Shown here: positions 20,824-37,319 of the stretch, piece by piece
How the letters are laid out: each line of letters opens with the position of its first letter
How positions within the stretch are numbered: the first letter of the stretch is position 1
Made by a program: the position numbers and the translations under genes
Assembly: GCA_015520425.1 (NCBI GenBank)
Contig: WAQC01000032.1
Coordinates: forward strand, 1-43,497
Length of the DNA: 43,497 nucleotides
DNA from: Candidatus Pelearchaeum sp.
GTDB taxonomy: Archaea; Thermoproteota; Nitrososphaeria_A; Caldarchaeales; Caldarchaeaceae
Reading direction: 5' to 3'
The notes under the pieces: model-generated
Told to the model about the DNA's origin: nothing
The model's input: the letters and a program-made list of their open reading frames with translations, nothing else
Database searches by the model: none

Positions 20824-22200
20824 TACCGATATAATCAAAAGCACCGCGAGTGAAAAGACGAGAAAGAGGAGAAACTGGGAATCCCGAAGGTCTCCCGCCA
20901 AGGTGGAGTCATCAGCGAATAGGCCTAGTCGTCTGAAGGTATTGTCGGTCGCCCCATCGCTAAGCATGGAGAAGATAGAAACAACATCCTGCGTCTCCCT
21001 TATGCTAACATTATTCTTGTTTAGATAGGCGAAGAAGTCCTCAAACAAATTTAGGCCATGCTTCTTGTATAATGTGTGGAAGACTAAGTATGATGAGGCA
21101 TAGTAGAGTGTTGGATTATGTGTTGGTGATGAGCGGCTCCACCCCACTATAAAACCCGCGGGATATGGAACGTTCTGAGAAACAGCCAAAAGACTATCCT
21201 CAACAGCTTTAACACCTCTAAGCCCTATGTTGTTTAGAAGGTATATTGAGAAGAAGTTGGCTGCTCCCTCGTGGAACCATAACAAGTCTTCATCTATGCC
21301 AGCGCTCCATAGGTAGTGGTGGATAAGCTCATGAACTGCGACATGCTCCATTATCCCAGGAAGCATCCTTATCGTGAATATGTTGATGTTAATATCGCCC
21401 AGCCCAGAGGGAAGTATGGGCACATAGCCGTCTACTCCCTCATAAAATGTACGCGGAAGGAAGAAGCGCACCGTGATATTCTCTGGCCTCACTTTGAATA
21501 GTTCCGTCATATTAGGAGAAAGGTCAGAGTATAGCATTAGGATATGACGCATATACGCTGAGTATTTCTCAGGAACAACACCCCTAAAACCATCAATAAC
21601 TATCTCATCAAAGCTTAGAGGTCTCTCCAAATTGTAGCTAATCCAAACCCTACCAGAGGGTAGTGGAAGAGTGAAAATAACGTTAATGTTATCCTTAGCC
21701 TTGCTGAACTGTTGCGGCTGGACACTATACTCATTAACCTCAGCCACGTTTTTGATACGAATAGCTAGCTTTCCAGAGAGCTTGTCGTCAATCATTATTA
21801 AGGGTGATAGAAAGAGCGCCCTATCATCAACAATTAAGGAAGCCATCTTAAAACTGTAGCGTAGGCTTATTGTATCGTATTCCAATGTGGAGATTGTTAT
21901 GTTATTGTAGAATATGTTTGTCTCGCCAGGCGCTATGTAGAGCGGCGATACAATATAGCTCGGCCTTCCATCTGTGAAAGACCAGACAATACGCTCACCG
22001 CGCGGCACGGCTAACCAAGTCTCACCAATACCCATAGCTCGGAGAAACTTCGCGTTAATCGTTACTCTCACCTCAGCATCTCCGTCTTCATCCACAGTTA
22101 TAACATAGGAGAGAGCATCCACTGGCTGTGTTAGGCTTGGTATGTTGGAAACTAGTAGTAGGGTGAAGACCAATATAGTGAGGAGAGTTTTCCTCTTCAG
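20749..22200 (-). CDS. Membrane-anchored HExxH (gluzincin, M1/M61-like) peptidase-like protein
   Basis: 'AVHELIHHYLWSAGIDEDLLWFHEGAANFFSIYLL' (HExxH plus downstream E), C-terminal TM 'FLLFLVFSLAVLLIISVSALTRLRR'. The signal-peptide n-region 'LKRKTLLTILVFTLLL' starts at CTG 22198-22200, right after the upstream TAA. The track starts at TTG 22173. Confidence 0.7.
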   Translation of the reverse strand: MKRKTLLTILVFTLLLVSNIPSLTQPVDALSYVITVDEDGDAEVRVTINAKFLRAMGIGETWLAVPRGERIVWSFTDGRPSYIVSPLYIAPGETNIFYNNITISTLEYDTISLRYSFKMASLIVDDRALFLSPLIMIDDKLSGKLAIRIKNVAEVNEYSVQPQQFSKAKDNINVIFTLPLPSGRVWISYNLERPLSFDEIVIDGFRGVVPEKYSAYMRHILMLYSDLSPNMTELFKVRPENITVRFFLPRTFYEGVDGYVPILPSGLGDININIFTIRMLPGIMEHVAVHELIHHYLWSAGIDEDLLWFHEGAANFFSIYLLNNIGLRGVKAVEDSLLAVSQNVPYPAGFIVGWSRSSPTHNPTLYYASSYLVFHTLYKKHGLNLFEDFFAYLNKNNVSIRETQDVVSIFSMLSDGATDNTFRRLGLFADDSTLAGDLRDSQFLLFLVFSLAVLLIISVSALTRLRRSGEPYVESGDFPSYVG

Positions 22201-22575
22201 TTACTCATCACATACGTGGCAGGAGTCTATATCAACGTCAGGCTCTATTTTCTTATGTATATCGCATAGCATCCGCTTCTTACGTATCTCCGCAACCACT
22301 TCGTTAAATTTTCTCGCTATCTCTGTCTGCGGCGTCTTATTCAATATCAACACCACTATCTCGTTTATCTTTTCATTCACCTCTTTCACATTCTCCCAAT
22401 TTACAACAACACCCCTAACCCCGCGCATATAGTTGCTTATCGCCGCCTGCGTAACCCCCAGCGCACGCGCCGCCTCCTCTTGAGTATAACTATGCTCTAG
22501 GATTAGTTTCTTAGCTACCATAGCTCTTATTACTGGTATTGTGAGCTTGGACTCAATTTCTGCTGGAAGTAGCAT
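22201..22575 (-). CDS. HTH transcriptional regulator with C-terminal Cys/His Zn motif (COG2522-like)
   Basis: 'YTQEEAARALGVTQAAISNYMRGVRG' HTH; C-terminal 'LCDIHKKIEPDVDIDSCHVCDE'. Confidence 0.8.
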   Translation of the reverse strand: MLLPAEIESKLTIPVIRAMVAKKLILEHSYTQEEAARALGVTQAAISNYMRGVRGVVVNWENVKEVNEKINEIVVLILNKTPQTEIARKFNEVVAEIRKKRMLCDIHKKIEPDVDIDSCHVCDE

Positions 22576-22678
22576 AACGCGCGTTTTATTAATCGTGTTA
22601 GTGAAATAAAAGCATTACTTGAAGCGTATTCTCGTAGAAACGGTTAAGTAAAAGAATATTGCCCAAGGCCAATTCTGG

Positions 22679-22696
22679 TTATAAACTATAATAAAT
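22679..22696 (+). promoter_or_regulatory. AT-rich promoter-like element TTATAAACTATAATAAAT upstream of the DUF350-like/M6 operon
   Basis: Matches the element at 28110-28127 at 17/18 positions by direct reading. Intergenic, upstream of the CDS start. Confidence 0.5.
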
Positions 22697-22744
22697 TCAA
22701 CCATACTGCAGTAGGAACCAGCATAGGTGCAGAGGGTGGTCGGA

Positions 22745-23284
22745 ATGATTGTTCCTCAGCAAATCACGCCGCCACCTCCTCCAACATGGCTTGACCCCGC
22801 TGTATTCCTCACCGACCTAGCATGGACGCTAATCAGAACTATAGTGACCTTCATTATCTCTTTCGGCATAGGCTTAGCGTCGCTGGGAGTCCTTGACAGG
22901 CTCACCCCTGGGGTTAGGGAAGTGAATAATATCCGCAACCACCCAATAGCTGTAGCGCTATTCGCGCTGGGCATATTCATCTTCCTCACATTCAGCCTGC
23001 TCGGCGCGGTTATATCTCCCCTACCAATAGGAATTACCTCTGGTCTAGGCCCCACAGTAAGTCCAGTGCTTATCTTCGCATATAGGATAACAGCGCTCTT
23101 AGCTGGCTTCCTGCTCTCGCTCTTCTTCGCATTCATCTACTACAGAATTCTAGCGCACCTGAGACCCTTCGGAATAGATTTGGACGAGATTGATAAAGAC
23201 GCCGTAGCTACGGGGATATACGTCCTGGGCTACTTGATATTCCTGGGAGCGATAATCTACATGGCTCTAGTGATTCCTGCATAG
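22745..23284 (+). CDS. Polytopic membrane protein, DUF350-like, with a Pro-rich N-terminus
   Basis: About four TM helices. 'LDRLTPGVREVNNIRNHPIAVALFALGIFIFLTFSLLGAVI' resembles DUF350 repeats. N-terminal 'QQITPPPPPTWLDP'. The track starts at GTG 22727; ATG 22745 is an alternative. Confidence 0.6.
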   Translation: MIVPQQITPPPPPTWLDPAVFLTDLAWTLIRTIVTFIISFGIGLASLGVLDRLTPGVREVNNIRNHPIAVALFALGIFIFLTFSLLGAVISPLPIGITSGLGPTVSPVLIFAYRITALLAGFLLSLFFAFIYYRILAHLRPFGIDLDEIDKDAVATGIYVLGYLIFLGAIIYMALVIPA

Positions 23285-23314
23285 TGGAGAAATCCCAAGA
23301 TAGGGGATAGGCAT

Positions 23315-24883
23315 ATGAGGAAAATCGCCGCAACCAGCGTCTTCGCAATTCTAATCATAGCAAGCATCGCACACGCGTATGCGGCTAAGCCACTCGTTGA
23401 TGAGGATTTCCAAGACCCGCGGATACCTTGGGAGCCTAGGCCTGTGACAGGAGGGCAGAAAACATTGATAATTCTTGTTGAGTTTTCGGATGTACGGTTC
23501 CTATCTCCCTTAAGCTATATACAGCAATTGGTTAGTAGTGTTGATGATTTCTTCAGACGGTCATCTTACGGCAAGATGTGGATAGAATACGACATATTGG
23601 AGACTGTAATAACATTGCCCAGACCGATGGCCTTTTACGGTAGTCCAGAGCCTGGAAACATGTTGGGAGACTCTGAGGCGGGTTTGTTACAATATTACAG
23701 AGATATATTCACTCTTCTTCGCGGAATGTCGCCGTTTAGGCTGGAAGACTATAAACACTTCGTAGTTATCCACGCTGGGGGAGATGAGGCGATAAGCGGA
23801 AACCCATACGAAAACTGGAGCCACTGTTATTGTCTTGGTCCTGCGGCTGAAGAGCTGGGTGATGCCAACCCTATTGCGGCGCTTATAGGTGTGGAGGGGG
23901 TTTGGGGTGTATCCACGTTTAGCGAGCAGGAAGATTGGGCGGTGTTCGCTCATGAATTCACGCATAGCTTGGGTATAAGCGACCTCTACGTATATGGGGA
24001 GCAGGGCTATAGTGCGAGGAGCGAGGTAGGGTATTGGTCTAATATGGACGCTGGAGCATTTCTAAACCCGCCAGCAGACATAGATGGATGGAACAAGTAT
24101 ATCCTCGGATGGATAGATGCAATTACACACAATAAGGGAGAGGCGGAATACGTGATTAACACGCTTGACACAAATCAAGAGCCGAAAGCAATAATAATAC
24201 CGATTAACGATGAAGAATACTACTTCCTCCATGCTAGGAGAAAAGTCGGGCAGGATGAAGCGCTACCTGCTGAGGGTGTCTTAATATTCAAGATAAACAA
24301 GATGCGCTCATTCAGCATGGAGGGAAGGCTACTAGCAGAGTTAAAAGACGCGAACCCAAAAACACCAGAAGAGTGCAGATTTTTGGCAGAGAGAAATAGG
24401 CTGTGCGAGGTTCTTGACGCGCCATACAACACGCCTGGAAAACAATATACTGCTGTAACACCTATAGGCGAGGTATATTTACTCGTCTTAAAGGAAGATA
24501 AGTTCATTGATAACGTTAGTGGTATTAGTGTTACTGTAGCTGATGTTGGAGATGGCTCATTTAAGCTAAGAATCTCCTCTATTGGCGGCGCAACTGAAGA
24601 AGAGGAGGAGGCTAAAACCGAGGAGACGATAACGATAACCTCCACAGTGTATCAGACCGTTACGGAGACGCTAGTTACAACAGTAACCACCGTTGGGACA
24701 GTTACAAAGACCGTCGTGGTTACTTATACCGTTAAGGAGAAAGAAGTTGAGATAAGGACCGTAGTAGATTACGCTCCCCTGCTTTTGGTTCTAACTGGAC
24801 TAGTAATGGGTATGGCGTTCATGGGAGCCTTAACGAGGAGAAGTAGAAGAATACCACCACCTCCACCGCCGTATAGGACATGA
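23315..24883 (+). CDS. M6 family (immune inhibitor A-like) metalloprotease with TVT-rich stalk and C-terminal TM
   Basis: Signal peptide, 'FAHEFTHSLGISDLY' (HExxHxxGxxD), 'EVGYWSNMDAG', stalk 'EETITITSTVYQTVTETLVTTVTTVGTVTKTVVVTYTV', TM, tail 'RRIPPPPPPYRT'. Confidence 0.88.
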   Translation: MRKIAATSVFAILIIASIAHAYAAKPLVDEDFQDPRIPWEPRPVTGGQKTLIILVEFSDVRFLSPLSYIQQLVSSVDDFFRRSSYGKMWIEYDILETVITLPRPMAFYGSPEPGNMLGDSEAGLLQYYRDIFTLLRGMSPFRLEDYKHFVVIHAGGDEAISGNPYENWSHCYCLGPAAEELGDANPIAALIGVEGVWGVSTFSEQEDWAVFAHEFTHSLGISDLYVYGEQGYSARSEVGYWSNMDAGAFLNPPADIDGWNKYILGWIDAITHNKGEAEYVINTLDTNQEPKAIIIPINDEEYYFLHARRKVGQDEALPAEGVLIFKINKMRSFSMEGRLLAELKDANPKTPEECRFLAERNRLCEVLDAPYNTPGKQYTAVTPIGEVYLLVLKEDKFIDNVSGISVTVADVGDGSFKLRISSIGGATEEEEEAKTEETITITSTVYQTVTETLVTTVTTVGTVTKTVVVTYTVKEKEVEIRTVVDYAPLLLVLTGLVMGMAFMGALTRRSRRIPPPPPPYRT

Positions 24884-26337
24884 TGAATAAACCCAGAAAA
24901 ATAAACAGACCGCCTATTCAAAGAACACTAAGCATAACCATCTTGACCATACTGTTTCTAACTAACACACTTACTATGGCGTATGCGCAGGAGGATATAC
25001 GGCTGAGAGCTATAGAAGTATTGCAGACGAACTTTGAATATGTTAAGAAGAATCTCACCCCGTCATACGAGGCTGTTGAAGAGCTTAGCGGATATAGCAA
25101 GTTAAGAGCTACCGCCCTTCTTGGTCTTATGACCGCATACATATACCTCGGAACACAACTAGCAGAGCCTTTACAGTATCTCAACAGGATAGCGGAAAGA
25201 GTTAATCAGATGGTTGAAGAGCAGAGTGGCATAATATTTGGAAGATGGAGTAAAGAAGACTTCTTAAAACAATTAGCCATACATAGAGTAACTATAGAGT
25301 TTCTAGAGGCTCATTATGGAATAACCCGCGATGAGCGGAGTAGAGCCAATTTGATGAAGCTGGTTGATAATAGGATAAGCAATCTGGGTTGGAGTATAGG
25401 AGTATCGCGTGCTTACTCTCTACTTTCAGCGTCGTCATACGCGGTAATGCTATATGGTAAGGCGGAAGAGCCTGACCTTAGGGAGGTAGAGGCCGAGATA
25501 CTCAACACAGAGTTTGAAAAGCTCGTGAAAGAAACCGACCTGTTCAATTTATTAGTCTTATCCTACGTCTTGTCAAATTTAATAAGATATTCAGCTGAAT
25601 CGCAGACGTTCATCCGAAATGAGATAATAGTGCTATGGAATGTTACTTCGTTTTATGTTTTGCCCGCTGATGTTGGGCGCATAAAGGTCAATGCAGATGT
25701 CTATGAGACCGCCGTTATAACGCTTGGCGTTTATCTCACAATCCACGAAGCGGGTAAAATTCTTGGCGAAGAATATAGAGGTATTAGTGAGCGCTCTTTA
25801 AAATCCTCGGAACAGCTTGCTAAGGAGCTCATAAGGTTGTGGCGCTCCGACAATAGCCTAACACGCCATTTAACACAATTATTTACTATCTACAGCTATC
25901 TCCCGACATTGGAGCCCTCAACAGACATCATAAACAAACGAATACCCGTGTATGATGTGCTCCTACCTTTACTTCTAGAAAGATTGACCAGGCTAACGAC
26001 TAACGAGGATTTATCTAGGCTATTCGCGGATAACTCAGTGTTTGCCGTAAAGCTTCTGACAAGCGGGGATGGATATTACCCTATTGTGGAGGAGTTTATA
26101 GAGGGTGCTGAATTCTTCAATAGATTTGCTATATCTCAATTCTTATCATTATGGCTTGTTGAACAGAGCCGCCGCATCACCTCACAGATAATACCCGAAC
26201 CCCCAATAGCATACTATATCTCATTAATTTCTTCTTTAATAGTGCTGGGAGTCCTGACGCTCTTGTATAGGATGGGTAAGCTTCTTCCACCTGAGGTGAG
26301 AGAAGAATGGCCCAGCCGTCGCCTAGACTGGGGCTAA
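24880..26337 (+). CDS. Single-pass membrane protein with a large helical extracytoplasmic domain, unknown function
   Basis: Signal peptide 'LSITILTILFLTNTLTMAYAQ', alpha-helical ectodomain, C-terminal TM 'YISLISSLIVLGVLTLLYRMG'. Overlaps the upstream stop (ATGATGA). Confidence 0.65.
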   Translation: MMNKPRKINRPPIQRTLSITILTILFLTNTLTMAYAQEDIRLRAIEVLQTNFEYVKKNLTPSYEAVEELSGYSKLRATALLGLMTAYIYLGTQLAEPLQYLNRIAERVNQMVEEQSGIIFGRWSKEDFLKQLAIHRVTIEFLEAHYGITRDERSRANLMKLVDNRISNLGWSIGVSRAYSLLSASSYAVMLYGKAEEPDLREVEAEILNTEFEKLVKETDLFNLLVLSYVLSNLIRYSAESQTFIRNEIIVLWNVTSFYVLPADVGRIKVNADVYETAVITLGVYLTIHEAGKILGEEYRGISERSLKSSEQLAKELIRLWRSDNSLTRHLTQLFTIYSYLPTLEPSTDIINKRIPVYDVLLPLLLERLTRLTTNEDLSRLFADNSVFAVKLLTSGDGYYPIVEEFIEGAEFFNRFAISQFLSLWLVEQSRRITSQIIPEPPIAYYISLISSLIVLGVLTLLYRMGKLLPPEVREEWPSRRLDWG

Positions 26338-27521
26338 TCCTAACGCTGGTTGGTTTTATAGTAATAGCGGTTGGTTTGGCCGCTAATGCAGTGATTACAG
26401 ATGCCATAGACGCTAAAACCCTACAAGCCCAAAGCATCATTACGCTTCTTCCACTTGTTCTATACTCGGATATAGGTGTGGGAATCTTAGGATGGGGAAT
26501 TGGGCTGTATCTATCAAGTTTAAATCCTCTATCAAGAACATATCTATACCCAATAGTATCCGGAGTAGGTATCTTCATCCTAGTACAATCATTATTATTA
26601 CTTGACACCTCAGGAATACTCTATGCCTACGTGGATTTTTTCTGGGGACTCCAATTCGCGCTAGCGCCATCGCTGATAACCTCTGGCATAGTTTCTGGGG
26701 TGCTTGTTGAGAGGCGTAGGAGACTTGCAGGCATTCCCGAACCCAGTCTCCGTCATGAGAAAATACTAGTTATGATACTAGCGTTGATACTGCTGCTCTA
26801 CTATATACCAGCACCCACTATTGTTCTCCGCATGATTGCGCTCATACTCGCTACTTGGTTGATATGGCATTTTCTAAGCCCCTACGTAGCTTCAGTAATA
26901 TTACTGGGAATGTCTAGCAAATCTCTGAAAAACAAACAATCGCGCTATGATTTCATGATAGTGGAAAAGCCTCGCCCAGAGCCTATAACCCTCTCAAATA
27001 TAATCTCTAGAGCATACTATCCAGCAGCCTTCGGCGTTGGTCTAGCATTTACCCTCCTAAACCTCTCCCAATATATCCCTGAGCTAGCGGGACTCTTCCG
27101 CGAAGGGATGTTAGAGAGAACGGCAGATATTGTCTGGATTTCTTTAATTATAATGGCCGTAGGCTCAATCTACGTCGGTCCCGTAGCGTGGATTTTTGAC
27201 GATGCTGGTGTGAGGTTATATGATAGGTTAAGGCGAGTTATGCTAAAACCGCAGTTGGCTAGATTTGCTGACGAGCTTGTGGAGCTATACTCATTTATCC
27301 AAGTTCCGCTGAGCTTTTTTGTGGGCATATCAATAGGAAGACTGGCTGAATCCATCTTTCTGGCAGCGGTGCTGATATACACGATATTCATGGCCGCCTT
27401 CATAGTAACGCTACTATATGCTCTTCTCTCTTCGGAAAAACACCTATACCGTTTTATTCAAATTCTCCACTCGCGAGGAGCTTTAAAACCGCCTGAAAAA
27501 GGCTTATACGTAGGCACATAA
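26307..27521 (+). CDS. Polytopic membrane protein, unknown function
   Basis: Multiple hydrophobic segments ('LGLILTLVGFIVIAVGLAANAVI', 'ILVMILALILLLYYI', and others). 31-bp overlap with the upstream gene in another frame. Confidence 0.65.
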   Translation: MAQPSPRLGLILTLVGFIVIAVGLAANAVITDAIDAKTLQAQSIITLLPLVLYSDIGVGILGWGIGLYLSSLNPLSRTYLYPIVSGVGIFILVQSLLLLDTSGILYAYVDFFWGLQFALAPSLITSGIVSGVLVERRRRLAGIPEPSLRHEKILVMILALILLLYYIPAPTIVLRMIALILATWLIWHFLSPYVASVILLGMSSKSLKNKQSRYDFMIVEKPRPEPITLSNIISRAYYPAAFGVGLAFTLLNLSQYIPELAGLFREGMLERTADIVWISLIIMAVGSIYVGPVAWIFDDAGVRLYDRLRRVMLKPQLARFADELVELYSFIQVPLSFFVGISIGRLAESIFLAAVLIYTIFMAAFIVTLLYALLSSEKHLYRFIQILHSRGALKPPEKGLYVGT

Positions 27522-27532
27522 ATGTTGTTTTT

Positions 27533-28009
27533 ATGTCTGGGGTTACCCGAAGTAAGGTAGTGGGGCTTCAGGTCTATAACCCTGATGGAACGTTAGTTGG
27601 GACAGTACAAGATGTCATCTTGCCAATAGGAGAGGAAGGCGGGGAAATATCGCTGCAAATCATTACAAAGTATAATCAGACTGAGAGCGTTAAGTGGTCT
27701 GAGGTTGAGGCTGTTGGTGATATAGTGATTTTGAAGAATAAGATTGAACTTAAGGCGCCTGAGGGGCAGCAGCCTACCGCAGCTCCGCAGCCTTCGCAGC
27801 CAACCCCACAACCAGTATCTCCACAGCCGTATGTGGCTACTCCACCAACTCCACAGCCCCCGCAACAACAGAAGGGAATAGGCGGGATTGCTTCAAAACT
27901 TGGATTCGGCAAGAAGGAAGAAAACCGCTGCCCAACCTGCGGCTCTCCACTAACGTATATAGAACAGTATCAGCGCTGGTACTGCTACAACGAAGGAAAA
28001 TACGTCTAA
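27533..28009 (+). CDS. PRC-barrel-like protein with Pro/Gln linker and C-terminal zinc-ribbon-like tail
   Basis: 'SKVVGLQVYNPDGTLVGTVQDVILPIGEEGGEISLQI...VKWSEVEAVGDIVILK', linker 'QPTAAPQPSQPTPQPVSPQPYVATPPTPQPPQQQ', tail 'CPTCGSPLTYIEQYQRWYCYNEGKYV'. Confidence 0.7.
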   Translation: MSGVTRSKVVGLQVYNPDGTLVGTVQDVILPIGEEGGEISLQIITKYNQTESVKWSEVEAVGDIVILKNKIELKAPEGQQPTAAPQPSQPTPQPVSPQPYVATPPTPQPPQQQKGIGGIASKLGFGKKEENRCPTCGSPLTYIEQYQRWYCYNEGKYV

Positions 28010-28022
28010 CACACTCTGTCTA

Positions 28023-28044
28023 GTTTTTACTATATTTTCTTTCT
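28023..28044 (+). terminator. Putative T-rich archaeal terminator after the PRC/zinc-tail gene
   Basis: GTTTTTACTATATTTTCTTTCT-type T-tract shortly downstream of the stop at 28009. Confidence 0.45.
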
Positions 28045-28109
28045 TGTAGCAAATTAATAATGCGACTAAAAATCAATTATTTTTGACTAAGTCCATCAAA
28101 AGACAATAT

Positions 28110-28127
28110 TTATAACCTATAATAAAT
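28110..28127 (+). promoter_or_regulatory. AT-rich promoter-like element TTATAACCTATAATAAAT upstream of the 28140 CDS
   Basis: Intergenic, 13 nt before the ATG (28140). Near-identical to the element at 22679-22696. Confidence 0.5.
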
Positions 28128-28139
28128 ATAGAATAAGTT

Positions 28140-28730
28140 ATGACATATCCTCCTGTTCCCTCCGCGCGAAAACGTCCAATAGGCTTGACAATCCTCGCTG
28201 TACTCTTCATAATAGTTTCAGTGTTTGCATTCTTTGGTGCTGCTGGAGCGGCTGCTCAGGGGGCTATTTTAGAGGCAGTGGGCATGTCGCCAACGGCCGT
28301 GATAATAACAGGAGTGTTATCGGGTATTCTCGGCCTTGCGGCTGGAGTAGCCATGCTGATGGGAAGGGCTTACATGCTAGTAATAGGTGCGGTCGTGATA
28401 TACATCATAATATCCCTAATCAACCCATTCCTACAGCCCGCAGCTATTACAGACCCAATAACTGGACAGCAGATAGATTTACGTGGCCAGTCGCTGGCTG
28501 GTTCTGCGATAAGTATTCTCATAGCTTTGGTTGTCTTGTTCTACTTGACCCGCGGGCATGTTAAGGCGTTTTTCCAGCCTGCTCCGTCGGCTATGTATCC
28601 TCCGCCGACAGCGCCAACTCCGCCTCCTCCGCCAACCGCAGCATCAGCGTGCCCAACATGCGGCACACCGCTTCAGTTCGTACCCCAATACCAGCGATAC
28701 TGGTGCCCCACATGCAGGCAGTATAGGTGA
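28140..28730 (+). CDS. Four-TM membrane protein with Pro-rich linker and C-terminal zinc ribbon
   Basis: Hydrophobic segments followed by 'APSAMYPPPTAPTPPPPPTAASACPTCGTPLQFVPQYQRYWCPTCRQYR'. Confidence 0.7.
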   Translation: MTYPPVPSARKRPIGLTILAVLFIIVSVFAFFGAAGAAAQGAILEAVGMSPTAVIITGVLSGILGLAAGVAMLMGRAYMLVIGAVVIYIIISLINPFLQPAAITDPITGQQIDLRGQSLAGSAISILIALVVLFYLTRGHVKAFFQPAPSAMYPPPTAPTPPPPPTAASACPTCGTPLQFVPQYQRYWCPTCRQYR

Positions 28731-28799
28731 ATTCTCCTCATATCACTTTTTATTTTGTGGGGAAAATTTATTAACAATTAATGGCGGAAAGCCGCAATT

Positions 28800-29345
28800 A
28801 TGTTATGGCGCACAGGTTTTGTTAAGAGATTAGACAGGATACTCTTGGCGTTATTTGTTGTATTTATAGCGGCTAGCGTAATACCGTCTGCTTCCAGTCA
28901 GCAACGCGAGCAGCAGATTATTGCATTAGCTTTTGATATTTGTCTCTCTCCTCTAACACAAGACCAGCAGATAGCAAATCTATGCTTAAGGCTAGGGCAG
29001 CAGGCAACTTTTGAGCTTGCCAATCAAGTCGTCAATAGGGCTTGTCAAATAAGTCCTAACGAGGTCAGCCAATACTCTAGGCAGTTCTATGGGTTTGACG
29101 CTTGTGCTGGCGGTGTTTTGGGTGGTGTATGGCTTTGGGTAGCTGGGGGTGTTGGTGCGGCGCTTATAGTGGGAGCTGTTGTGGCTGCGATTATAAAGAG
29201 GAGAAGAGCCAGCTATATGCCCCCAGCAACGTATCCGCCAGCCCCACAGCAGGCGCCGCCGACCTGCCCGACCTGTGGAACACCACTACAGTTCATACCT
29301 CAATACCAGCGAAACTGGTGTCCAGCCTGCCAGCAGTATAAATAG
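28800..29345 (+). CDS. Receptor-like single-pass protein: signal peptide, 4-Cys ectodomain, TM, Pro linker, zinc ribbon
   Basis: 'ILLALFVVFIAASVIPSASSQ' signal; ectodomain Cys at FDIC/NLC/RAC/DAC; TM 'VWLWVAGGVGAALIVGAVVAAIIKRRR'; tail 'CPTCGTPLQFIPQYQRNWCPACQQYK'. Confidence 0.7.
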   Translation: MLWRTGFVKRLDRILLALFVVFIAASVIPSASSQQREQQIIALAFDICLSPLTQDQQIANLCLRLGQQATFELANQVVNRACQISPNEVSQYSRQFYGFDACAGGVLGGVWLWVAGGVGAALIVGAVVAAIIKRRRASYMPPATYPPAPQQAPPTCPTCGTPLQFIPQYQRNWCPACQQYK

Positions 29346-29350
29346 AATAA

Positions 29351-29371
29351 CCCCCTTTTCATTATTTTATT
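29351..29371 (+). terminator. Putative T-rich archaeal terminator after the receptor-like zinc-tail gene
   Basis: CCCCCTTTTCATTATTTTATT directly downstream of the stop at 29345. Confidence 0.4.
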
Positions 29372-29405
29372 CTCTAGGCTTACCTAAGCATTAATTTTAA
29401 ATATA

Positions 29406-29999
29406 ATGTCAAATAAACTAGATAGTATGCTTCTACTAGCTTATCCTCCTTCACCACCACATTATCCCCCAACAGCCCCCTACGACCCTTACAGAATGCT
29501 CAAGGATTCTAGCATTAGGGTTTTCATAATTCTCCTAATAGGTACGCTGGTTTTGGCTGTTATTGGCTCTATACTAATAAGTACTTCAGTTGGTGTGCGT
29601 GGGTTGATAGTTCAGAGGAATGTTGCGCAGGAGATTGTTGGCTGGCTCTTCGTTATCGCTGGAGGTGTTCAGGGGATAGCTGCTCTTCTCTGGCTGCTAC
29701 TTATTCATATGAAGATAAATCCAAATGAGCTATGGTACATGTCGTCCAACTTGCGTTTATTAAGATACATAGGGTTCGTGGCTTATCCGTTCATTACAAA
29801 ATTTGAGCAGCAGCTCGCGGCTCAGGTTTATGGTGGGCAGTATCAGCAGGCTCCTCCCCCGCAGTATCAGCAGTCGCAACCACAGCCTTATGCGCCGACT
29901 CCACCAATCTACACATGTCCTAGATGCGGAAACCAAATACAGCCTGGAGCACCTATATGCCCCTACTGTGGATTCCAGTTCCAGCAGCCACAAACCTAA
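29406..29999 (+). CDS. Membrane protein with Pro-rich N-terminus, Pro/Gln linker and C-terminal double-CxxC zinc ribbon
   Basis: 'AYPPSPPHYPPTAPYDPYRML', two TM helices, 'QYQQAPPPQYQQSQPQPYAPTPPIYTCPRCGNQIQPGAPICPYCGFQFQQ'. Confidence 0.7.
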   Translation: MSNKLDSMLLLAYPPSPPHYPPTAPYDPYRMLKDSSIRVFIILLIGTLVLAVIGSILISTSVGVRGLIVQRNVAQEIVGWLFVIAGGVQGIAALLWLLLIHMKINPNELWYMSSNLRLLRYIGFVAYPFITKFEQQLAAQVYGGQYQQAPPPQYQQSQPQPYAPTPPIYTCPRCGNQIQPGAPICPYCGFQFQQPQT

Positions 30000-30089
30000 T
30001 GCTCATTTTTATAAGCTACTTAACACACCCAGCTGCGGGGTATAAAATTTTTAACCTATCCAAGCATAGGCTGCAAGGGGTGTTTATTA

Positions 30090-30854
30090 TTGGTTGTCGG
30101 CAGTAATGGTCTTAAAGCGGGTGCTCTTGCTGGTGTTCCCTTGGTAGCGATAAATGTAGCGGTTTCACTCACCATGAATCTCTCTCAGATAGGCCAGGTA
30201 ATAGGCGATGCCGTCATAACACTCGTAATCACTGCGCTTCTCGGTCTGATTATAGCAGGTTTGAAGAAGGCGCTGTTCTTTATGAGAATATCCTCGGCTA
30301 ATCTGGCTATGGTTATGGGGCTTGTTGCGGCAGGTTTGATGATATACGATGGGAGGCCAGAGGTTCTCGTGGGGCATGGCGTTAGGTCTGCGGCTGAGCA
30401 GTATCTGGGGCCGTCTATGGCTGCTATAATTCCCCCTCTTGCCGCTGGCCTCTTTTGGGGTATGTTGATGGGGACGCTCTACGCTAAGATGGGTGGCGAG
30501 AGGGCTGAAGCCATTCAGCAGCCCGTGCATCGCCGCGTATTTTCCCGCCTATTTACGCGCGAGAGGGAAGCCCAACAGCAAGCTAGGGCTGGAACACTCC
30601 AGCCCCCAAGGGTTCAGCAACCACCCATGTCTCCACAACAACAGATACAGCCGCGAATCAAGGCCGAGAAAGATAAGTGCGCCTCATGCGGCGCTAAGAA
30701 AGGCGGACTATTCGGCAAAAAAATCAAGTTTATGGAATGTAAGCGGGACGGCCTGATTTACTGCGAGAACTGTTATACAAGATTTCCACGATTCGGCGGT
30801 ATAACCTATGCCTGTCCTAGATGCGGCGGCGCGCTCTCAATAGTAACAGACTAG
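30090..30854 (+). CDS. Polytopic membrane protein with Gln/Pro linker and C-terminal zinc-binding region
   Basis: TM helices, then 'QPPRVQQPPMSPQQQIQPR' and 'CASCGAKKGGLFGKKIKFMECKRDGLIYCENCYTRFPRFGGITYACPRCGGALSIV'. TTG start in the track. Confidence 0.65.
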   Translation: MVVGSNGLKAGALAGVPLVAINVAVSLTMNLSQIGQVIGDAVITLVITALLGLIIAGLKKALFFMRISSANLAMVMGLVAAGLMIYDGRPEVLVGHGVRSAAEQYLGPSMAAIIPPLAAGLFWGMLMGTLYAKMGGERAEAIQQPVHRRVFSRLFTREREAQQQARAGTLQPPRVQQPPMSPQQQIQPRIKAEKDKCASCGAKKGGLFGKKIKFMECKRDGLIYCENCYTRFPRFGGITYACPRCGGALSIVTD

Positions 30855-31306
30855 ACGGTGAATATTGTTACCATGATTAAGGTCGTAGGCTCTCCCGTCG
30901 GCTGAGGCTGTTTGAAAAATCCCACATGCACGAAGTTCTGATTACCCTCCCTGCTAGTCCATACATATACTCTATTCACACCGTTGGGTTTGCATTCCTG
31001 CTCTATGAAGACCTGCAAGACCGCCTGGACGTTCCCTATTTCATGGGGCTGGAAATACGATACATAGCCGCGCTGTATCTCCAACATGGCGCTGCATCTA
31101 TGCGCCTCCACCACTTCAAACCCGTTCTGTTGTAGCATGCCTTTAACGTCCTGGATAACCTTGTCGCGCGTGAGCGGCGGATACGGTGCTGGTCCTCTCG
31201 GCGGGTATTGGTAGGGAGGAGGCCCTGGCGGATAGCCTGGTGGTGGGGGAGATGGGGGATACGACAAGGCAGTAATCACCCGTGCTACTCTCCAATTCTC
31301 TACCAA
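30851..31306 (-). CDS. Small soluble protein with a poly-Pro N-terminal segment, unknown function
   Basis: 'YPPSPPPPGYPPGPPPYQYPPRGPAPYPPLTRDKVIQDVKGMLQQNGFEVVEAHRC...'. The first codon in the track is TTG; a GTG (MITALSYPP) is also plausible. Confidence 0.6.
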   Translation of the reverse strand: MVENWRVARVITALSYPPSPPPPGYPPGPPPYQYPPRGPAPYPPLTRDKVIQDVKGMLQQNGFEVVEAHRCSAMLEIQRGYVSYFQPHEIGNVQAVLQVFIEQECKPNGVNRVYVWTSREGNQNFVHVGFFKQPQPTGEPTTLIMVTIFTV

Positions 31307-31316
31307 TAATTAAGCA

Positions 31317-32132
31317 TTAAAGCCTCACATAATCAACTCCAATCTCGCTCAACTCCTCTAGCAGTTTCTGACGTTGTTCCGAGTTTATTCCCTTCCAATC
31401 AACGTATGCGAGTCTTGGTTTCTCCACCGTCTTCTCAAACGCTTCCCGTATCATTTTGCTTGATAGTGGGAAGTGGTATTTCGGCGCTATGTGGCCGAAG
31501 GCTACCCTCTCCTGTAATACTAGGGGCGTGAATCGCGGCGTATAGTGGCCGCCGCCAAAACCAACAGCTATCTCAGGAGCATTCACATGCTCAGCCGCGC
31601 ATGCTGCTAGACATGCCTCTGCAACAATCTCACCCATCTTCGGGTTGTTCCACTCTGCTGGGGAGCTGCCTAGCTCTACGAAGAGTAGGGGCTTCTCCGA
31701 ATAGGGTCCGTGATGCGTTGCTTCCATACCCACATCCCATCCAGCTAGCCCAGCCTCTTCCACTAGGCGTCTCAGCTTGCTTACAGCAGAAAATATCGCG
31801 CGTGCGGATGTGGTGGCGAGAGAGCTTGGCCTACCTCCAAACTCCGCCTTCTCACCCCAGTTACCTACTGGATGAGACAGCACGGCCTTCACCCCAGCCT
31901 CCGAAACATGCTTAGACGCCACAACAATAAGCCCCGCATCAATACTGGAAACCTCATCATCAGCATAGATTGAAGGCCTATTTACCGTGATTATCCTAAT
32001 ATCCCCACGCCTATAGACGGGGTTCCCAAACATGCTGGAAGAATCTTCTCTGAAGCCGAATGACTCTATCAGCCGCTCCCTTATGTTGAGCGAGGCTGGG
32101 TCCTCTTTGGAGCAGAGTATGACTTTGTCCAT
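31317..32132 (-). CDS. dtdA: D-aminoacyl-tRNA deacylase, archaeal/plant DTD2 (GEK1) type
   Basis: 'LSHPVGNWGEKAEFGGRPSSLATTSA', 'GMEATHHGPYSEKPLLFVELGSSPAEWNN', 'AVGFGGGHYTPRFTPLVLQERVAFGHIAPKYHF'. Confidence 0.93.
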   Translation of the reverse strand: MDKVILCSKEDPASLNIRERLIESFGFREDSSSMFGNPVYRRGDIRIITVNRPSIYADDEVSSIDAGLIVVASKHVSEAGVKAVLSHPVGNWGEKAEFGGRPSSLATTSARAIFSAVSKLRRLVEEAGLAGWDVGMEATHHGPYSEKPLLFVELGSSPAEWNNPKMGEIVAEACLAACAAEHVNAPEIAVGFGGGHYTPRFTPLVLQERVAFGHIAPKYHFPLSSKMIREAFEKTVEKPRLAYVDWKGINSEQRQKLLEELSEIGVDYVRL

Positions 32133-32201
32133 GACTGTTATGCTGTCGTTGCGCTGGCGACTATTAATTTATGATGGGACACCGTTTATTATCGTGGATG
32201 C

Positions 32202-33044
32202 ATGTCGGCTGGCGTTGGGCTAATCACATCTCACGTTGCCCGCGAGGTTCTCTCCAGAAGGGGGAGGGAGGGCCAGGTAAGAATCTCCCTTGACCTAGGC
32301 TTGTCCAGCGAGCTGTGCGAGATACGTAGCGAGGGGCTCTACGCTAGGGGAGTTTTACTTGAATGGGATTTTCTGGAAACGGTCTCGGAGGATGAGCGGG
32401 GAATATATACGGTTGAGACACCACCGCGCAAGCTCTACTTCTCGGCATCAGGCCATTTCTACATGCTAACCATGACCTCCTGGGGCCACGCACCTACGGT
32501 TGAGATAGACGGCGTGCACATGCACCGCGTAAAGGGTATGTTTCCTGAGGAGGATGCGCGGAGAAAGGTTGAGCTTATGGGCAGGCTAAGATGCAAGAGT
32601 GTTCTAGACATTTGTACGGGGCTGGGCTACACCGCCATCTGGGCCAAGAAGCTAGGCGCGTGTAGTGTTAAGACGATAGAGAAGGACGAGAACATCCTAG
32701 AGCTGGCCAGATACAACCCATGGTCGCGCGAGCTCTTCGCTGGAGGTATAGAGATAATCACAGGCGACGCGGTGAGCATAGTGGATGAGCTGGATGAACG
32801 GTTTGACGCAATATTAAACGACCCGCCCACGATTAAGATTGCTGGCGAGCTATATAGCAGGCAGTTCTATCAACGTCTATACGAGCTTCTGAAGCGCGGA
32901 GGTATTCTCATACACTATGTAGGAGAGCCTGGTGTGCGTTCGGGTAAGCGGATTTATGTGGGTGTCTTGGAGAGGCTTAGGAGCGCTGGCTTCAGCGCGA
33001 GCTTTGACCACTCCACACGCTGCGTTAAGGCGGTCAAGGTTTAA
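32202..33044 (+). CDS. SAM-dependent methyltransferase (COG2521-like, spermidine-synthase-like fold)
   Basis: 'KSVLDICTGLGYTAIWAKKLGACSVKTIEKDENILELARYNPWS', 'FDAILNDPPTIKIAGELYSRQFYQRLYELLKRGGILIHYVG'. Confidence 0.85.
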   Translation: MSAGVGLITSHVAREVLSRRGREGQVRISLDLGLSSELCEIRSEGLYARGVLLEWDFLETVSEDERGIYTVETPPRKLYFSASGHFYMLTMTSWGHAPTVEIDGVHMHRVKGMFPEEDARRKVELMGRLRCKSVLDICTGLGYTAIWAKKLGACSVKTIEKDENILELARYNPWSRELFAGGIEIITGDAVSIVDELDERFDAILNDPPTIKIAGELYSRQFYQRLYELLKRGGILIHYVGEPGVRSGKRIYVGVLERLRSAGFSASFDHSTRCVKAVKV

Positions 33045-33096
33045 ACCCTAATACCATGCTCTCTCAAGCTGCTAGGCTAGGGGAAGGACTTTAGCT

Positions 33097-34677
33097 ATGT
33101 CGCAGAGGCAGGTCATAGGGCTCGGCACTTGGATGGATAAGCTCGCCAGCAGGCTTGTGGAGCGCGAGAAGCGGCTAGGCCGCTCCCTAGAGCTCCTCAG
33201 AACCGAGGCTGGCATAGCAGCCTCTGGGATAGTCCACCTAGGGAGCATGGCCGACTCTGTGAGAGCCCACGCAGTAGCGCTTGCCCTCAAAAATCTTGGA
33301 TACAACTCCGAGACGATACAGTTCGCGGATGATATGGATGGTCTTAGAAGCGTTCCAGCGGAGCTTCCCCGCGAGGTTGGGAAATACCTGCTCCACCCAG
33401 TATCGCTAATCCCAGACCCATTCAACTGCCATGGCTCATACGCGGAGCACATGGAGTATCTCCTGCTTGACGCGCTTGAAAAGGCTGGGATAAGGGCGAC
33501 GTTCATGAGAGCATACGACGCATACAAGAGCGGGATACTCACAGAACAGATAAGGAAGATACTCAAAAACCATAAAGCGGTAGGCGAGAAGATTAACGAA
33601 CTCACAGGGCAGAAGAAGTTTCTTGACACGCTCCCATACTTCCCAATATGCGGAAACTGCGGGAGAGTCTATACAGCCTATGCATACAAGTTTGAGTCTG
33701 GGAGTGGTAAGGTTCTCTACCGTTGTAAGGGTGTTACGGTTAAGGGTGTCTGGCACGAGGGATGCGGCTATGAGGGGGAAGCGGACATAAAGAAGGCTGA
33801 CGGGAAGCTCTCGTGGAAGGTTGAGTGGGCCGCGCGATGGGCGGCGCTGGACATAAGGTTTGAAGCATACGGGAAAGACCTAGCCAACTCAATAATGGTA
33901 AACGACTGGGTCTCGCGCGAGATTCTTCAATTTGAGCCGCCCATGCACGTCCAATACGAGCTTTTCCTAGACGAGTCAAAGAGGAAGATATCCAAGTCGC
34001 GTGGGGTTAGTGTATTCACGCCGCAGAGCTGGTATAGATACGGAACGCCCCAGAGCCTCATCCTGCTCCTGCTCAAGCGTATAAAGGGGACACGCGTAAT
34101 CTCGCCACCGCTAATCCCAGCGTTGATGAACGAGCTGGACAGGCTACAAGACGCATACTACTCTGGAAGCGGCGACATAAAGTCTAGGGGCCTCTTCATG
34201 TATATCTATAACCTAGAGCCCCCGCGAGAGCCGCCCTCAAAAGTTCCCTACACCCTCCTCACCCAGCTTGCGGGCGCGGCTCCCGATGGGGCTGAGGAGC
34301 AGTTCGTGATAAGCCGCCTACAACGCTACGGCTACAAGGTTGACGACACAGTAAGGGAGAGGGTTAGGATGGCGATAAACTTCGTCAAAGACTTCGGCCA
34401 GGTGGAGGTCAAGCCAGTACAACTATCCGAGAACCAGAAGAAAGCGATTAACGAGCTAATCAAAGTCATAGAGAAGGCTGGAAGCGGCGACGAGATACAG
34501 AACGGAATATTCAACGCGGCGCGAAACAACGGCCTACAGCCAGCAGAGTTCTTCAGAACACTCTACGAGGTGCTGATAGGACAGCCGAGAGGGCCGCGTC
34601 TTGGGCCGTATATCTTTGAAGACCTAGGTCGTGAGAGGACGATAGAGAAGTTGCGCGAAGCCGTTGGTAGGCCGTAG
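33097..34677 (+). CDS. lysS: Class I lysyl-tRNA synthetase
   Basis: 'IAASGIVHLGSMADSVRAHAVALAL' (HIGH region), 'KRKISKSRG' (KMSKS-like), 'CGNCGRVYTAYAYKFESG' Zn region. Confidence 0.92.
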   Translation: MSQRQVIGLGTWMDKLASRLVEREKRLGRSLELLRTEAGIAASGIVHLGSMADSVRAHAVALALKNLGYNSETIQFADDMDGLRSVPAELPREVGKYLLHPVSLIPDPFNCHGSYAEHMEYLLLDALEKAGIRATFMRAYDAYKSGILTEQIRKILKNHKAVGEKINELTGQKKFLDTLPYFPICGNCGRVYTAYAYKFESGSGKVLYRCKGVTVKGVWHEGCGYEGEADIKKADGKLSWKVEWAARWAALDIRFEAYGKDLANSIMVNDWVSREILQFEPPMHVQYELFLDESKRKISKSRGVSVFTPQSWYRYGTPQSLILLLLKRIKGTRVISPPLIPALMNELDRLQDAYYSGSGDIKSRGLFMYIYNLEPPREPPSKVPYTLLTQLAGAAPDGAEEQFVISRLQRYGYKVDDTVRERVRMAINFVKDFGQVEVKPVQLSENQKKAINELIKVIEKAGSGDEIQNGIFNAARNNGLQPAEFFRTLYEVLIGQPRGPRLGPYIFEDLGRERTIEKLREAVGRP

Positions 34678-34753
34678 TTTTTGGGCTTAGCCATAGATTT
34701 AAATAAGAGGCTGGTACGGAATATGCGCACCTAAAAGAGCGTGTAAAGAAAGG

Positions 34754-35179
34754 TTGAGTGAAATAGTTAAGATAGGTAGTTTGACTCCGCGCTCGCGCGG
34801 AGTAAACCTAGTGGCTAAGGTTGTTGAGAAGCCGCCGACGAAGACTGTTTCTTCACAGTACGACCAGTCGGAGCATACGCTGTCTGAAGCTCTGATAGCA
34901 GACGACACAGGCGCTATAAAGCTGATTCTCTGGGACGACAACGCGGAGAAGGTTAATGAGGGCGATACGATAAAGGTGAACAACGGTTTTGTCAAGGTCT
35001 TCCGTGGTAGGATGCAGCTGAATCTGGGTAGGTATGGCTCTGTGGAGCTGTCAGATGAGGTTCTTGAGAACATAAACACGGAGAACAACCTCTCCGCGAG
35101 GGAGACTTATAGCAGCGACTACGGCTACCAGAGTAGGGGCTACGGCCAGCGCCGCCCATTTAGACGGGGAAGACTCTAA
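34754..35179 (+). CDS. Single OB-fold ssDNA-binding protein with an RG-rich basic tail
   Basis: 'VKIGSLTPRSRGVNLVAKVVEKPPTKTV...EALIADDTGAIKLILWDDNAEKVNEGDTIKVNNGFVKVFRGRMQLNLGRYG', tail 'YGYQSRGYGQRRPFRRGRL'. TTG start in the track. Confidence 0.85.
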   Translation: MSEIVKIGSLTPRSRGVNLVAKVVEKPPTKTVSSQYDQSEHTLSEALIADDTGAIKLILWDDNAEKVNEGDTIKVNNGFVKVFRGRMQLNLGRYGSVELSDEVLENINTENNLSARETYSSDYGYQSRGYGQRRPFRRGRL

Positions 35180-35223
35180 GAACCAAACCGCCTTAAACTC
35201 CCCCTTCCCTTATTCTTTATTCT

Positions 35224-36528
35224 TCATTCTTCAACAGGCTCTACCAGCAGAAGACCCTCTCTGCGCTCAACTATCCTAACCTTCTGCCCTTTCCTAATCT
35301 CCGTCTTGGAGGTAGCTCTCCAGTACTCGCCTGAGACCAAGATGTAACCCTCCTCACCTGGCTTTAAGTCGTCCACGGCCTTGCCAACACCACCGAGATA
35401 CTGCTCAAAATAGCTCCTTCTCTTCTGTATCCTGAGCGCTTTATAGATTAGGAAGACGAAGATAGCACCAGCGACTGCAGTTGATACTCCTACTGAGAAG
35501 TATAGTTGTTGCAGCCATTCTTCGGAGACGTATATGGGGTAGGGCGGGTATCCTATGAGGAGAATCAGGCCTAGGGTTAGTGCGAAGATTCCTCCTAGGC
35601 CTGCTGCTCCGAATCCTGGTGTGTGCAGCTCAAAGATTATGAGGGCAGCGCCTATGGCTGCGAGTAGTATTCCTATGATATTCACGTTGAAGCCCTGACC
35701 CAGGAGCCCTAGGAGTATCATTATGCCCCCAGCTACCTCAGCGCCCCACCCAGGGCTCGTGAAACCAAGTATCAAGACCAGTATCCCTATGGAGAGGAGA
35801 AGACTGGAAACCAGCGGGTCTGAGAAGAGCGCTATTATTGAAGACCTTATGCTAGGCCCCGCCTTAACCAGCTTAGCCCCATTAAGGTCTAGAGTTCTCT
35901 CCCCACCAAGCCTATACACCGTCGCCCCATCCGCTTTCTCTAGAAGCTCCTCAGGCGACTCTGCTATTGCTTCTATAACCCCCAGCCTAAGCGCCTCCTC
36001 TGGGCCTAGGTTGTCATTATGCGTGATGAACCTAACAGCTTGGGTTGCGTTTCGCTTATGCAGCTCGGCGAGGGAGCTCATCTTGGCTGTGAGGAAGTTT
36101 ATGAGCTTGGTCTCGTTGCTCGGCTGGCCGCCGACAACTGGCTGGGCAGAGCCTATCAGCGTGTAGGGAGCCATCGCAGCATAGTCTGTCGCCATGAGTA
36201 TGTAGGTGCCTGCTGAGAGCGCCTGCTTGCCAGCTGGGTAGACGAAGCCTATCACGGGTGTGGGAGACTCTAGTATGGCGTCAATTATCCTGAACATGGC
36301 GTCGCCGAGGCCGCCGAAGGTGTCCAACGTCATGAGAACTGCCTCATAGTCTCCAGCGTTTCTTAGGTTCTCCTCAACATAGTCAGCCATGCCTGGCGAG
36401 ACGTAGCCGTTAAGCTCCAGCCAGAGGACGCGCTTCTCATCAGTAGAGCCATAGCTATCAGAAGCGGCGAGTAAAGCTGAAAAAGATATGAGGAATATTG
36501 CTATGGTTATAGTTGCGGCTCTATTCAT
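35224..36528 (-). CDS. nfeD: NfeD family membrane protein with ClpP-class Ser protease domain
   Basis: 'VLWLELNGYVSPGMADYVEENLRNA', 'PVIGFVYPAGKQALSAGTYILMATDYAAMAPYTLIGSAQPV', multi-TM NfeD region, C-terminal OB-like 'GEEGYILVSGEYWRATS'. Confidence 0.92.
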   Translation of the reverse strand: MNRAATITIAIFLISFSALLAASDSYGSTDEKRVLWLELNGYVSPGMADYVEENLRNAGDYEAVLMTLDTFGGLGDAMFRIIDAILESPTPVIGFVYPAGKQALSAGTYILMATDYAAMAPYTLIGSAQPVVGGQPSNETKLINFLTAKMSSLAELHKRNATQAVRFITHNDNLGPEEALRLGVIEAIAESPEELLEKADGATVYRLGGERTLDLNGAKLVKAGPSIRSSIIALFSDPLVSSLLLSIGILVLILGFTSPGWGAEVAGGIMILLGLLGQGFNVNIIGILLAAIGAALIIFELHTPGFGAAGLGGIFALTLGLILLIGYPPYPIYVSEEWLQQLYFSVGVSTAVAGAIFVFLIYKALRIQKRRSYFEQYLGGVGKAVDDLKPGEEGYILVSGEYWRATSKTEIRKGQKVRIVERREGLLLVEPVEE

Positions 36529-37319
36529 CTCTTCTTTGACGACTCTATCATACCCATCATAGCAGCCATTTCCTTAAGCCCGCTACTCTCGGTAATCACT
36601 ATCATGTTCTTCTCTCTAGCTATCTCAGCCCATGTCTGGAGTTCGCGAAGCCTCATGGCGGATGGGTTCTGGGCATAGTAGTCGGCTGCCTCAGCCATCT
36701 TCTGCGCTGCCTGCAGCTCTCCCTCAGCCATGATTATCCTGCTCCTCCTCTCGCGCTCAGCCTCAGCCTGCTTGGCGATAGCCCTCTGCATCGTCTCAGG
36801 TATCACCACATCACGTATTGCTACCGTTGTCACCTTAATACCCCAAGGCTCCGTAGCCTCATCAAGTATCTGCTGTATCCGCTTGTTAATCTCTTCCCTC
36901 CTAGTGAGGAGGTCGTCAAACTCCACCTGGCCTATGACATCACGCAGCGTGGTCTGAGCCAACATGGCAGAGGCTGTTATGTAGTCCTTAACACGCACAA
37001 CAGCAGCAATAGGGTCATTAACCCTGAAATAGACGATAGCATCAACATCAACAGTTACGTTATCCTTCGTGATTATACGCTGTTTGGGTACGTCAAGTGT
37101 TATTAGCCTTAGGTCAACGATGCGCCGCTTATCTATTATTGGCAGTATTATGACCAGCCCAGGCCCCTTGGCGCCGAGTAGCCTACCCAGCCTGAAGATG
37201 ACCACACGCTCATATTCTGTAGCTATCTTAATGGCCGATGATAGCAGCCCTAGTATTATTATGAGCAGGAAGATTGTTAGAAAGATGTTTCCAGGTGTGA
37301 GCTGTGCTAATACGCTCAT
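36525..37319 (-). CDS. Stomatin/SPFH (band 7) family protein (slipin)
   Basis: 'EYERVVIFRLGRLLGAKGPGLVIILPIIDKRRIVDLRLITLDVPKQRIITKDNVTVDVDAIVYFRV', 'QAEAERERRSRIIMAEGELQAAQ'. ATGA overlap with nfeD. Confidence 0.94.
   Translation of the reverse strand: MSVLAQLTPGNIFLTIFLLIIILGLLSSAIKIATEYERVVIFRLGRLLGAKGPGLVIILPIIDKRRIVDLRLITLDVPKQRIITKDNVTVDVDAIVYFRVNDPIAAVVRVKDYITASAMLAQTTLRDVIGQVEFDDLLTRREEINKRIQQILDEATEPWGIKVTTVAIRDVVIPETMQRAIAKQAEAERERRSRIIMAEGELQAAQKMAEAADYYAQNPSAMRLRELQTWAEIAREKNMIVITESSGLKEMAAMMGMIESSKKR

Follow-up and report, generated by a model that had tools for sequence, protein, structure and literature searches.

A C-terminal ribbon tail shared by unrelated neighbouring proteins, and a conserved PRC-ribbon gene neighbourhood, in the archaeon Candidatus Pelearchaeum

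Introduction

Several described systems resemble, in part, the locus considered here. The Pfam families Zn_Ribbon_1, Zn_ribbon_3 and DZR (PF13240, PF13248 and PF12773) comprise small ribbons built on a C-x2-C...C-x2-C knuckle. AmoZ of Nitrosocosmicus carries a lineage-specific, presumably cytoplasmic zinc ribbon at the C-terminus of an archaeal membrane protein (PMC10030591). PRC proteins act in archaeal cell division, with SepF as the partner of CdpB in haloarchaea, and the CdvA-related arCOG03733 is a zinc-ribbon archaeal family related to a PRC-barrel division protein (PMC11188069). Here we analyze an array of five consecutive genes in a stretch of 43,497 nucleotides from Candidatus Pelearchaeum sp. 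(hereafter, the window; contig WAQC01000032.1 of assembly GCA_015520425.1). Three of the encoded proteins, otherwise unrelated, end in one type of ribbon tail, and one of these, a PRC-barrel protein, belongs to a conserved gene neighbourhood. The host is a hot-spring archaeon of the order Caldarchaeales, formerly the phylum Aigarchaeota.

The window derives from a metagenome-assembled genome (MAG) of 1.80 Mb in 149 contigs, which is 93% complete. Genome-wide counts for the host were obtained by pattern and profile searches. Some of the homology queries were artificial concatenations of window proteins, and their matches were assigned via the query coordinates.

Results

The open reading frames (ORFs) of all five genes were confirmed on the plus strand (27533–30854), and their bodies are mutually unrelated and mostly those of membrane proteins. 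The first gene (27533–28009) encodes a PRC-barrel followed by a disordered Pro/Gln linker and a C-terminal ribbon. The second (28140–28730) encodes a protein with four transmembrane (TM) segments, a Pro-rich linker and a ribbon, with a TATA-like stretch just upstream of the gene, while the third (28800–29345) encodes a signal segment, a short Cys-containing ectodomain, one TM segment, a Pro linker and a ribbon. A 2-TM protein with a Pro/Gln linker (29406–29999) and a polytopic protein with a TTG start and about four TM segments (30090–30854) complete the array. The TM counts, none being found in the PRC protein, were derived from hydropathy and bear out an earlier, sequence-only reading of the window, which had described five consecutive genes with different N-terminal modules. 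The Pro/Gln-rich linkers and Cys-rich ends that it had noted were likewise found in all five, the Pro plus Gln content of the linkers being 34–57%, versus 7.5% in a sample of other window proteins. Six ORFs in the window have at least two CxxC-like pairs in their last 70 residues; five are the array genes, and the sixth, at 37428, lacks a TM segment. All of the C-terminal-ribbon membrane proteins detected in the window are thus encoded by consecutive genes.

The same ribbon had been claimed for all five proteins, and this proved true of three: those of the PRC protein (CPTCGSPLTYIEQYQRWYCYNEGKYV, 27929–28006, plus strand), the 4-TM protein (CPTCGTPLQFVPQYQRYWCPTCRQYR, 28650–28727, plus strand) and the ectodomain protein (CPTCGTPLQFIPQYQRNWCPACQQYK, 29265–29342, plus strand). 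The 2-TM protein carries instead a generic ribbon (Zn_Ribbon_1, E 1.4e-6, and Zn_ribbon_3, E 1.2e-6, both over the Pfam cut-off), and the polytopic protein a distinct multi-Cys ribbon. The three tails form one family, CPxCGxPL-x-[YF][IV]-x-QYQR-x-[WY]C-x2-[C/E]-x2-Y, with 13 of 29 columns invariant, and also fit the wider definition C-x2-C-G-x14-C-x2-[C/E/D]-x2-Y-x-end. They match the tail profile with E-values of 4.8e-18, 7.3e-17 and 2.5e-16, respectively, and are themselves among its 13 input rows. Near-identity, as originally described for all three, applies to the 4-TM and ectodomain tails (21 of 26 residues); the PRC tail agrees with each of these at 13–14 of 26 positions and ends in CYNEGKY, with Glu (27998–28000) instead of the fourth Cys. 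Exactly three copies of the shared tail were found in the host genome, all of them in this array, within one run of 1.4 kb. The chance that three random genes would be consecutive is ∼1.5e-6 for an assumed ∼2000 genes, a value which local duplication would raise.

None of the three tails matched a Pfam or NCBIfam model over its cut-off, and no significant sequence match to a solved structure was found in the PDB. The commonest Pfam match among tail proteins, DZR, is attained by just 13 of 59 members, and the shared ribbon therefore seems to have no specific model in Pfam or NCBIfam. From the ligand spacing and the confident AlphaFold fold, the tails would be expected to bind metal, and they presumably lie on the cytosolic side of the membrane.

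A DNA pattern scan of species-level genomes, in which the fourth-ligand position was left open, revealed at least 115 tail stretches. Among the matches listed, most are from Thermoplasmatota, and others from Heimdallarchaeota, Nitrososphaeria, Brockarchaeota, Thermofilaceae, Desulfurococcales, Parvarchaeota and a few bacteria. In 121 of the listed pattern matches the fourth-ligand position is occupied by Cys (104), Glu (16) or Asp (1), and by no other residue. Glu occurs there in distant lineages (e.g., L121, L122, L144, L160, L189, L206 and L215), and this recurrence suggests that it serves as a carboxylate metal ligand. In 250 sampled Thermoproteota, the tail profile gave one to six matches in each of 117 genomes, usually distant from one another or on separate contigs, and Pelearchaeum maunauluense (G001) also possesses a tail protein. 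No relative of the tail or of the polytopic body, sought as a sign of viral origin, is encoded on any viral contig. The tail is a widespread archaeal C-terminal ribbon and no local invention. The modular reuse of one tail on different bodies thus holds in the host genome and far beyond it. The clustering of such common tails is indeed unusual, as had been proposed: among the matches listed, two separate tail genes occur at just one of the 115 loci.

The bodies that bear the tail range from soluble proteins to those with up to eight TM segments, and some match SAP, DnaA, Ras-like or PRC models; ribbon tails were seen on two Bac_DnaA-matching proteins and one Ras-matching protein. Zinc ribbons are often nucleic-acid binders. 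The SAP and DnaA matches, together with some to Ribosomal_S27a, could accordingly be read as signs that the ribbon binds RNA, DNA or the ribosome and tethers membrane bodies to nucleic acid or translating ribosomes. The tail has, however, few conserved basic residues besides one Arg, the scores against S27a and DZR resemble those expected of zinc ribbons in general, and most bodies lack any nucleic-acid link, so that we consider such a tether very unlikely.

Among the matches listed, the C-terminus lies exactly four residues past the fourth-ligand position in 66 of 110 tail proteins. This placement is what would be expected if the ribbons were generic structural caps, closing disordered cytosolic tails in a hot cell against proteasomal or peptidase attack and having no specific partner; the bodies share nothing, and different ribbon types fill the same slot, which also fits. 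On the other hand, the non-ligand positions (Y-x-R-[WY] and the final Tyr) are strongly conserved over very distant archaea, beyond what a cap would seem to need, and the tail is also found in sediment and soil archaea and in some bacteria. A purely protective role is therefore judged unlikely.

The PRC-ribbon gene is the last of a set of genes on the plus strand that is conserved in Caldarchaeales. In the window, the set begins with a DUF350 4-TM membrane protein (22727–23284; Pfam E 1.1e-10, over the cut-off) and continues with a secreted M6 metalloprotease (23315–24883; Peptidase_M6 E 1e-7, 32 bits over a cut-off of 22; motif HEFTH), which has a C-terminal TM segment and a putatively cytosolic Pro-rich end, RIPPPPPPYRT. 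The M6 gene overlaps by 4 nt the gene for a helical, alpha/alpha-repeat ectoprotein with a C-terminal TM segment (24880–26337; AlphaFold pLDDT 84), which has homologues in eight relatives and no Pfam match; Foldseek found it weakly similar to alpha/alpha-barrel glycosidases and epimerases (TM-score about 0.3–0.4). A 7–8 TM protein (26307–27521) then adjoins the PRC-ribbon gene, and the genes from M6 to PRC overlap or are 11 bp apart. Of 300 Thermoproteota, 9 encode this 8-TM protein, all of them members of the Caldarchaeales. The PRC-ribbon gene adjoins the 8-TM gene or its alpha/alpha partner in all eight assessable genomes, with varying orientation; the contig of the ninth genome stops shortly after the 8-TM gene.

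The full order in relatives is DUF350, a PrsW-like 7-TM protein, a ribbon-ectoprotein, the M6 metalloprotease, the alpha/alpha ectoprotein, the 8-TM protein and the PRC-ribbon protein (e.g., L092, 8142–14876). DUF350 homologues lie near the M6 gene in seven genomes (G003, G005, G006, G011, G027, G033 and G039), and in genus g3 (G003, G005) the neighbourhood is divided into two distant parts. The ribbon-ectoprotein (L092, 12330–13424; also in G003, G005 and G006) combines a stalk, a TM segment and a Pro linker with a CxxC ribbon of its own. The PrsW score (15.8 bits) falls below the Pfam cut-off of 23.5 and the protein is therefore named PrsW-like at most. In the window, the genes for these two proteins are absent between DUF350 and M6. 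We found no published description of the DUF350-to-PRC-ribbon neighbourhood, and the PRC-ribbon gene is thus a member of a conserved, so far undescribed Caldarchaeales neighbourhood. The conserved synteny that had been suggested as a check was therefore observed in part: the PRC-ribbon gene is linked to upstream protease and membrane-protein genes, but not to other tail genes.

The barrel of the PRC-ribbon protein exceeds the Pfam cut-off for PRC (PF05239, 24.7 bits over 21.2; E 2.4e-5), and 17 homologues were aligned. Other Caldarchaeales, and Nitrososphaerales as well, have PRC-ribbon proteins that are encoded outside the conserved neighbourhood. AlphaFold predicts a folded barrel (pLDDT mostly 94–97) and a folded ribbon (92–94), joined by a disordered linker (40–51). 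In Foldseek, the barrel is closest to the PRC domains of CdpB1 and CdpB2 of A. fulgidus (8onw and 8qzo; E about 1e-4 to 1e-3). Ahead of their ribbons, PRC proteins repeatedly show a short motif of hydrophobic and basic residues. We do not claim a membrane-targeting helix here, since the motif has a modest hydrophobic moment and is absent in Nitrososphaerales. Given the structural match and the division role of PRC proteins, the PRC-ribbon protein could be a CdpB-type cell-division adaptor and the array a division-site set. Profile searches, however, detected no SepF (PF04472) in the host, although a divergent SepF could be missed in a MAG that is 93% complete, and none in 11 of 13 Caldarchaeales genomes (the host, G001 and relatives), in which a control search worked. 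Moreover, G001 lacks any PRC-domain match in a profile search, and the neighbours are proteases and membrane proteins, with no known division genes. The lack of a detectable SepF in particular lowers this possibility, which we regard as highly improbable.

A conserved five-gene array was rejected, since no relative among the 250–300 Thermoproteota searched has one. In G002, a member of the same family, a homologue of the 4-TM protein (L086, 37% identity) also ends in this kind of tail. Its divergent neighbour there (L086, 3733–4086) is a homologue (33% identity, E 1e-20) of the gene that follows the window array, which encodes a soluble protein with a Pro/Tyr-rich N-terminus (30851–31306, minus strand). 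The 4-TM and PRC tail proteins of G002 are on different contigs. Other 4-TM homologues (G008, G009, G012, G016, G020 and G024) are tail-less: within the order, some end after the last TM segment and two after a run of Pro, and the 300 bases downstream contain no readable ribbon. Among 300 Thermoproteota genomes, no relative was found for either the ectodomain or the 2-TM body, and the polytopic body has one distant relative (G287, E 1.3e-7), which bears a Zn_Ribbon_1 tail instead. The four genes downstream of PRC are separated by gaps of 60–130 bp, with AT-rich, TATA-like stretches upstream (not compared with chance expectation), and may have separate promoters; they appear to have accreted beside the conserved operon.

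At the DNA level, identity is 78% between the window's 4-TM and ectodomain tails and 87% between the 4-TM tail of G002 and that of an unrelated ectoprotein in the same genome, while the 4-TM tails of the host and G002 share 65%. The fourth ligand, moreover, changes in step within a genome, being Cys in both members of the window pair and Glu in both of the G002 pair. Since tails on unrelated bodies within a genome are closer than orthologous 4-TM tails between genomes, the tails appear to have been copied or converted within a genome, which, with two genomes compared, is suggestive but not proven; the 4-TM and ectodomain tails of the window look homogenized by duplication or conversion. The remaining tail protein of G002 (L087), the third, was considered as an orthologue of the window ectodomain protein and discarded, since its body gave no match. 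It also has an in-frame stop upstream. In G184, three DNA-identical ribbon tails occur with different N-termini (L096, 6867–7829 and 8254–8439; L097, 7898–8218), which indicates recent tail duplication.

Taken at its plainest, the array would be an ordinary neighbourhood, in which a common ribbon type, lineage-specific orphans and local tail duplication happened to meet, with no joint function beyond the PRC operon. The lack of an array in any relative, the separate contigs of the two tail proteins in G002 and the rarity of paired tail genes elsewhere all agree with this, but the confinement of all three genomic copies to one short run is improbable unless local duplication occurred, and the ribbon-tailed membrane proteins of the window are all consecutive. 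We regard this explanation as somewhat unlikely.

A natural deletion provides a further comparison. Window positions 18001–22950 and 31226–36000 align to G001 at about 89–90% DNA identity and abut there with a 4-bp overlap (L227), such that the block at 22951–31225 is precisely absent; the flanking genes are about 86–98% identical in protein. The deletion of 8.3 kb is clean: the M6/PRC operon and the whole array are gone, and DUF350 and the 30851 gene are cut. Since both of these genes are cut, and since the DUF350–M6 neighbourhood is kept in other families, the event was a loss in G001 and not a gain in the window. The operon and array are thus dispensable and were lost as one block.

Two other features adjoin the region. 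A minus-strand membrane protein with a HELIHH-type metallopeptidase motif (20749–22173) lies beside the operon and is retained in G001. Further downstream (35224–37319), an NfeD-like membrane protease is paired with an SPFH/stomatin protein, which we take to be an ordinary archaeal membrane operon.

Discussion

The proposal that the array forms one system has fared poorly. Its authors had named homologues scattered without synteny, or a ubiquitous unlinked ribbon, as evidence against it, and this is largely what was observed: the tail is widespread, its copies are scattered and no array is conserved. We find no support for a single five-protein system built on a common adaptor.

We tentatively favour, with slightly less than even confidence, an explanation in which tethered ribbon heads serve to dock both the membrane bodies and the PRC scaffold where membrane proteolysis takes place. 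The shared ribbon would hang from unrelated bodies on a disordered Pro/Gln tether. Its ancient carrier at this locus would be the PRC-ribbon protein, the soluble last gene product of a Caldarchaeales membrane and secreted set that includes the M6 metalloprotease. In the Pelearchaeum lineage, additional membrane proteins with cytosolic linker-plus-ribbon ends may have accreted downstream, two of which would have gained almost the same tail through duplication or conversion of tail DNA. The heads would act as docking knobs, through which membrane bodies and PRC scaffold alike reach one cytosolic partner at a site of surface proteolysis or envelope maintenance.

Several observations point in this direction. 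The tail occurs on unrelated bodies across archaea, and the AlphaFold model alternates folded barrel, disordered linker and folded ribbon. The PRC-ribbon gene has stayed with the 8-TM and alpha/alpha genes despite changes of orientation, and the neighbourhood of relatives already includes a second ribbon-tailed protein and the Pro-tailed M6 protease. The 4-TM homologues range from those with no tail, through those with a Pro run alone, to those with linker plus ribbon; the likeness of tails within a genome, with its in-step ligand switch, and the removal or truncation of every gene from DUF350 through 30851 by a single deletion also agree with docking.

Other observations weigh against it. Within the array, more than one type of ribbon fills the same slot, and the G287 relative of the polytopic body has a ribbon different from that in the window; a specific dock would account for this variety less well than a generic cap. 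Conservation of the operon does not extend to the downstream genes, whose spacing fits accretion rather than one transcript. DNA-level homogenization of tails requires no shared partner, and G001 lives without the whole set.

A bolder version of the docking explanation would make the tail an archaea-wide cytosolic docking tag with a switchable Cys or carboxylate fourth ligand, its copying between unrelated membrane proteins ensuring that every tagged protein in a cell recognizes one common partner. In Caldarchaeales, the tag would recruit membrane bodies and the PRC scaffold to an undescribed membrane proteolysis complex. In this extended form we consider the docking explanation quite unlikely.

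Irrespective of the explanation, a ribbon that seems to lack a specific model and is found on dozens of unrelated archaeal proteins offers a handle on membrane-protein tethering in archaea. The PRC-ribbon neighbourhood supplies a conserved set of candidate partners, and the deletion in a named congener a clean natural comparison.

Comparison with known systems

The shared tail has the small knuckle of the Zn_Ribbon_1, Zn_ribbon_3 and DZR families, of which the array 2-TM protein is a true member, with its ribbon at the end of a membrane protein after a low-complexity linker. Unlike these families, the shared tail scores below their cut-offs, has a Y-x-R-[WY] core and a final Tyr, and accepts Glu or Asp as fourth ligand. 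AmoZ, in contrast, is a single subunit in one genus, with neither an array nor a PRC partner, and is set apart here by its description (PMC10030591). The arCOG03733 family, likewise set apart by description, carries an N-terminal ribbon on a CdvA-like coiled coil (PMC11188069). CdpB1 and CdpB2 are archaeal, have the PRC-barrel fold and are the best structural matches to the window protein, which differs from them in its added linker and ribbon, in a host in which SepF was not found, and in its protease and membrane-protein neighbours.

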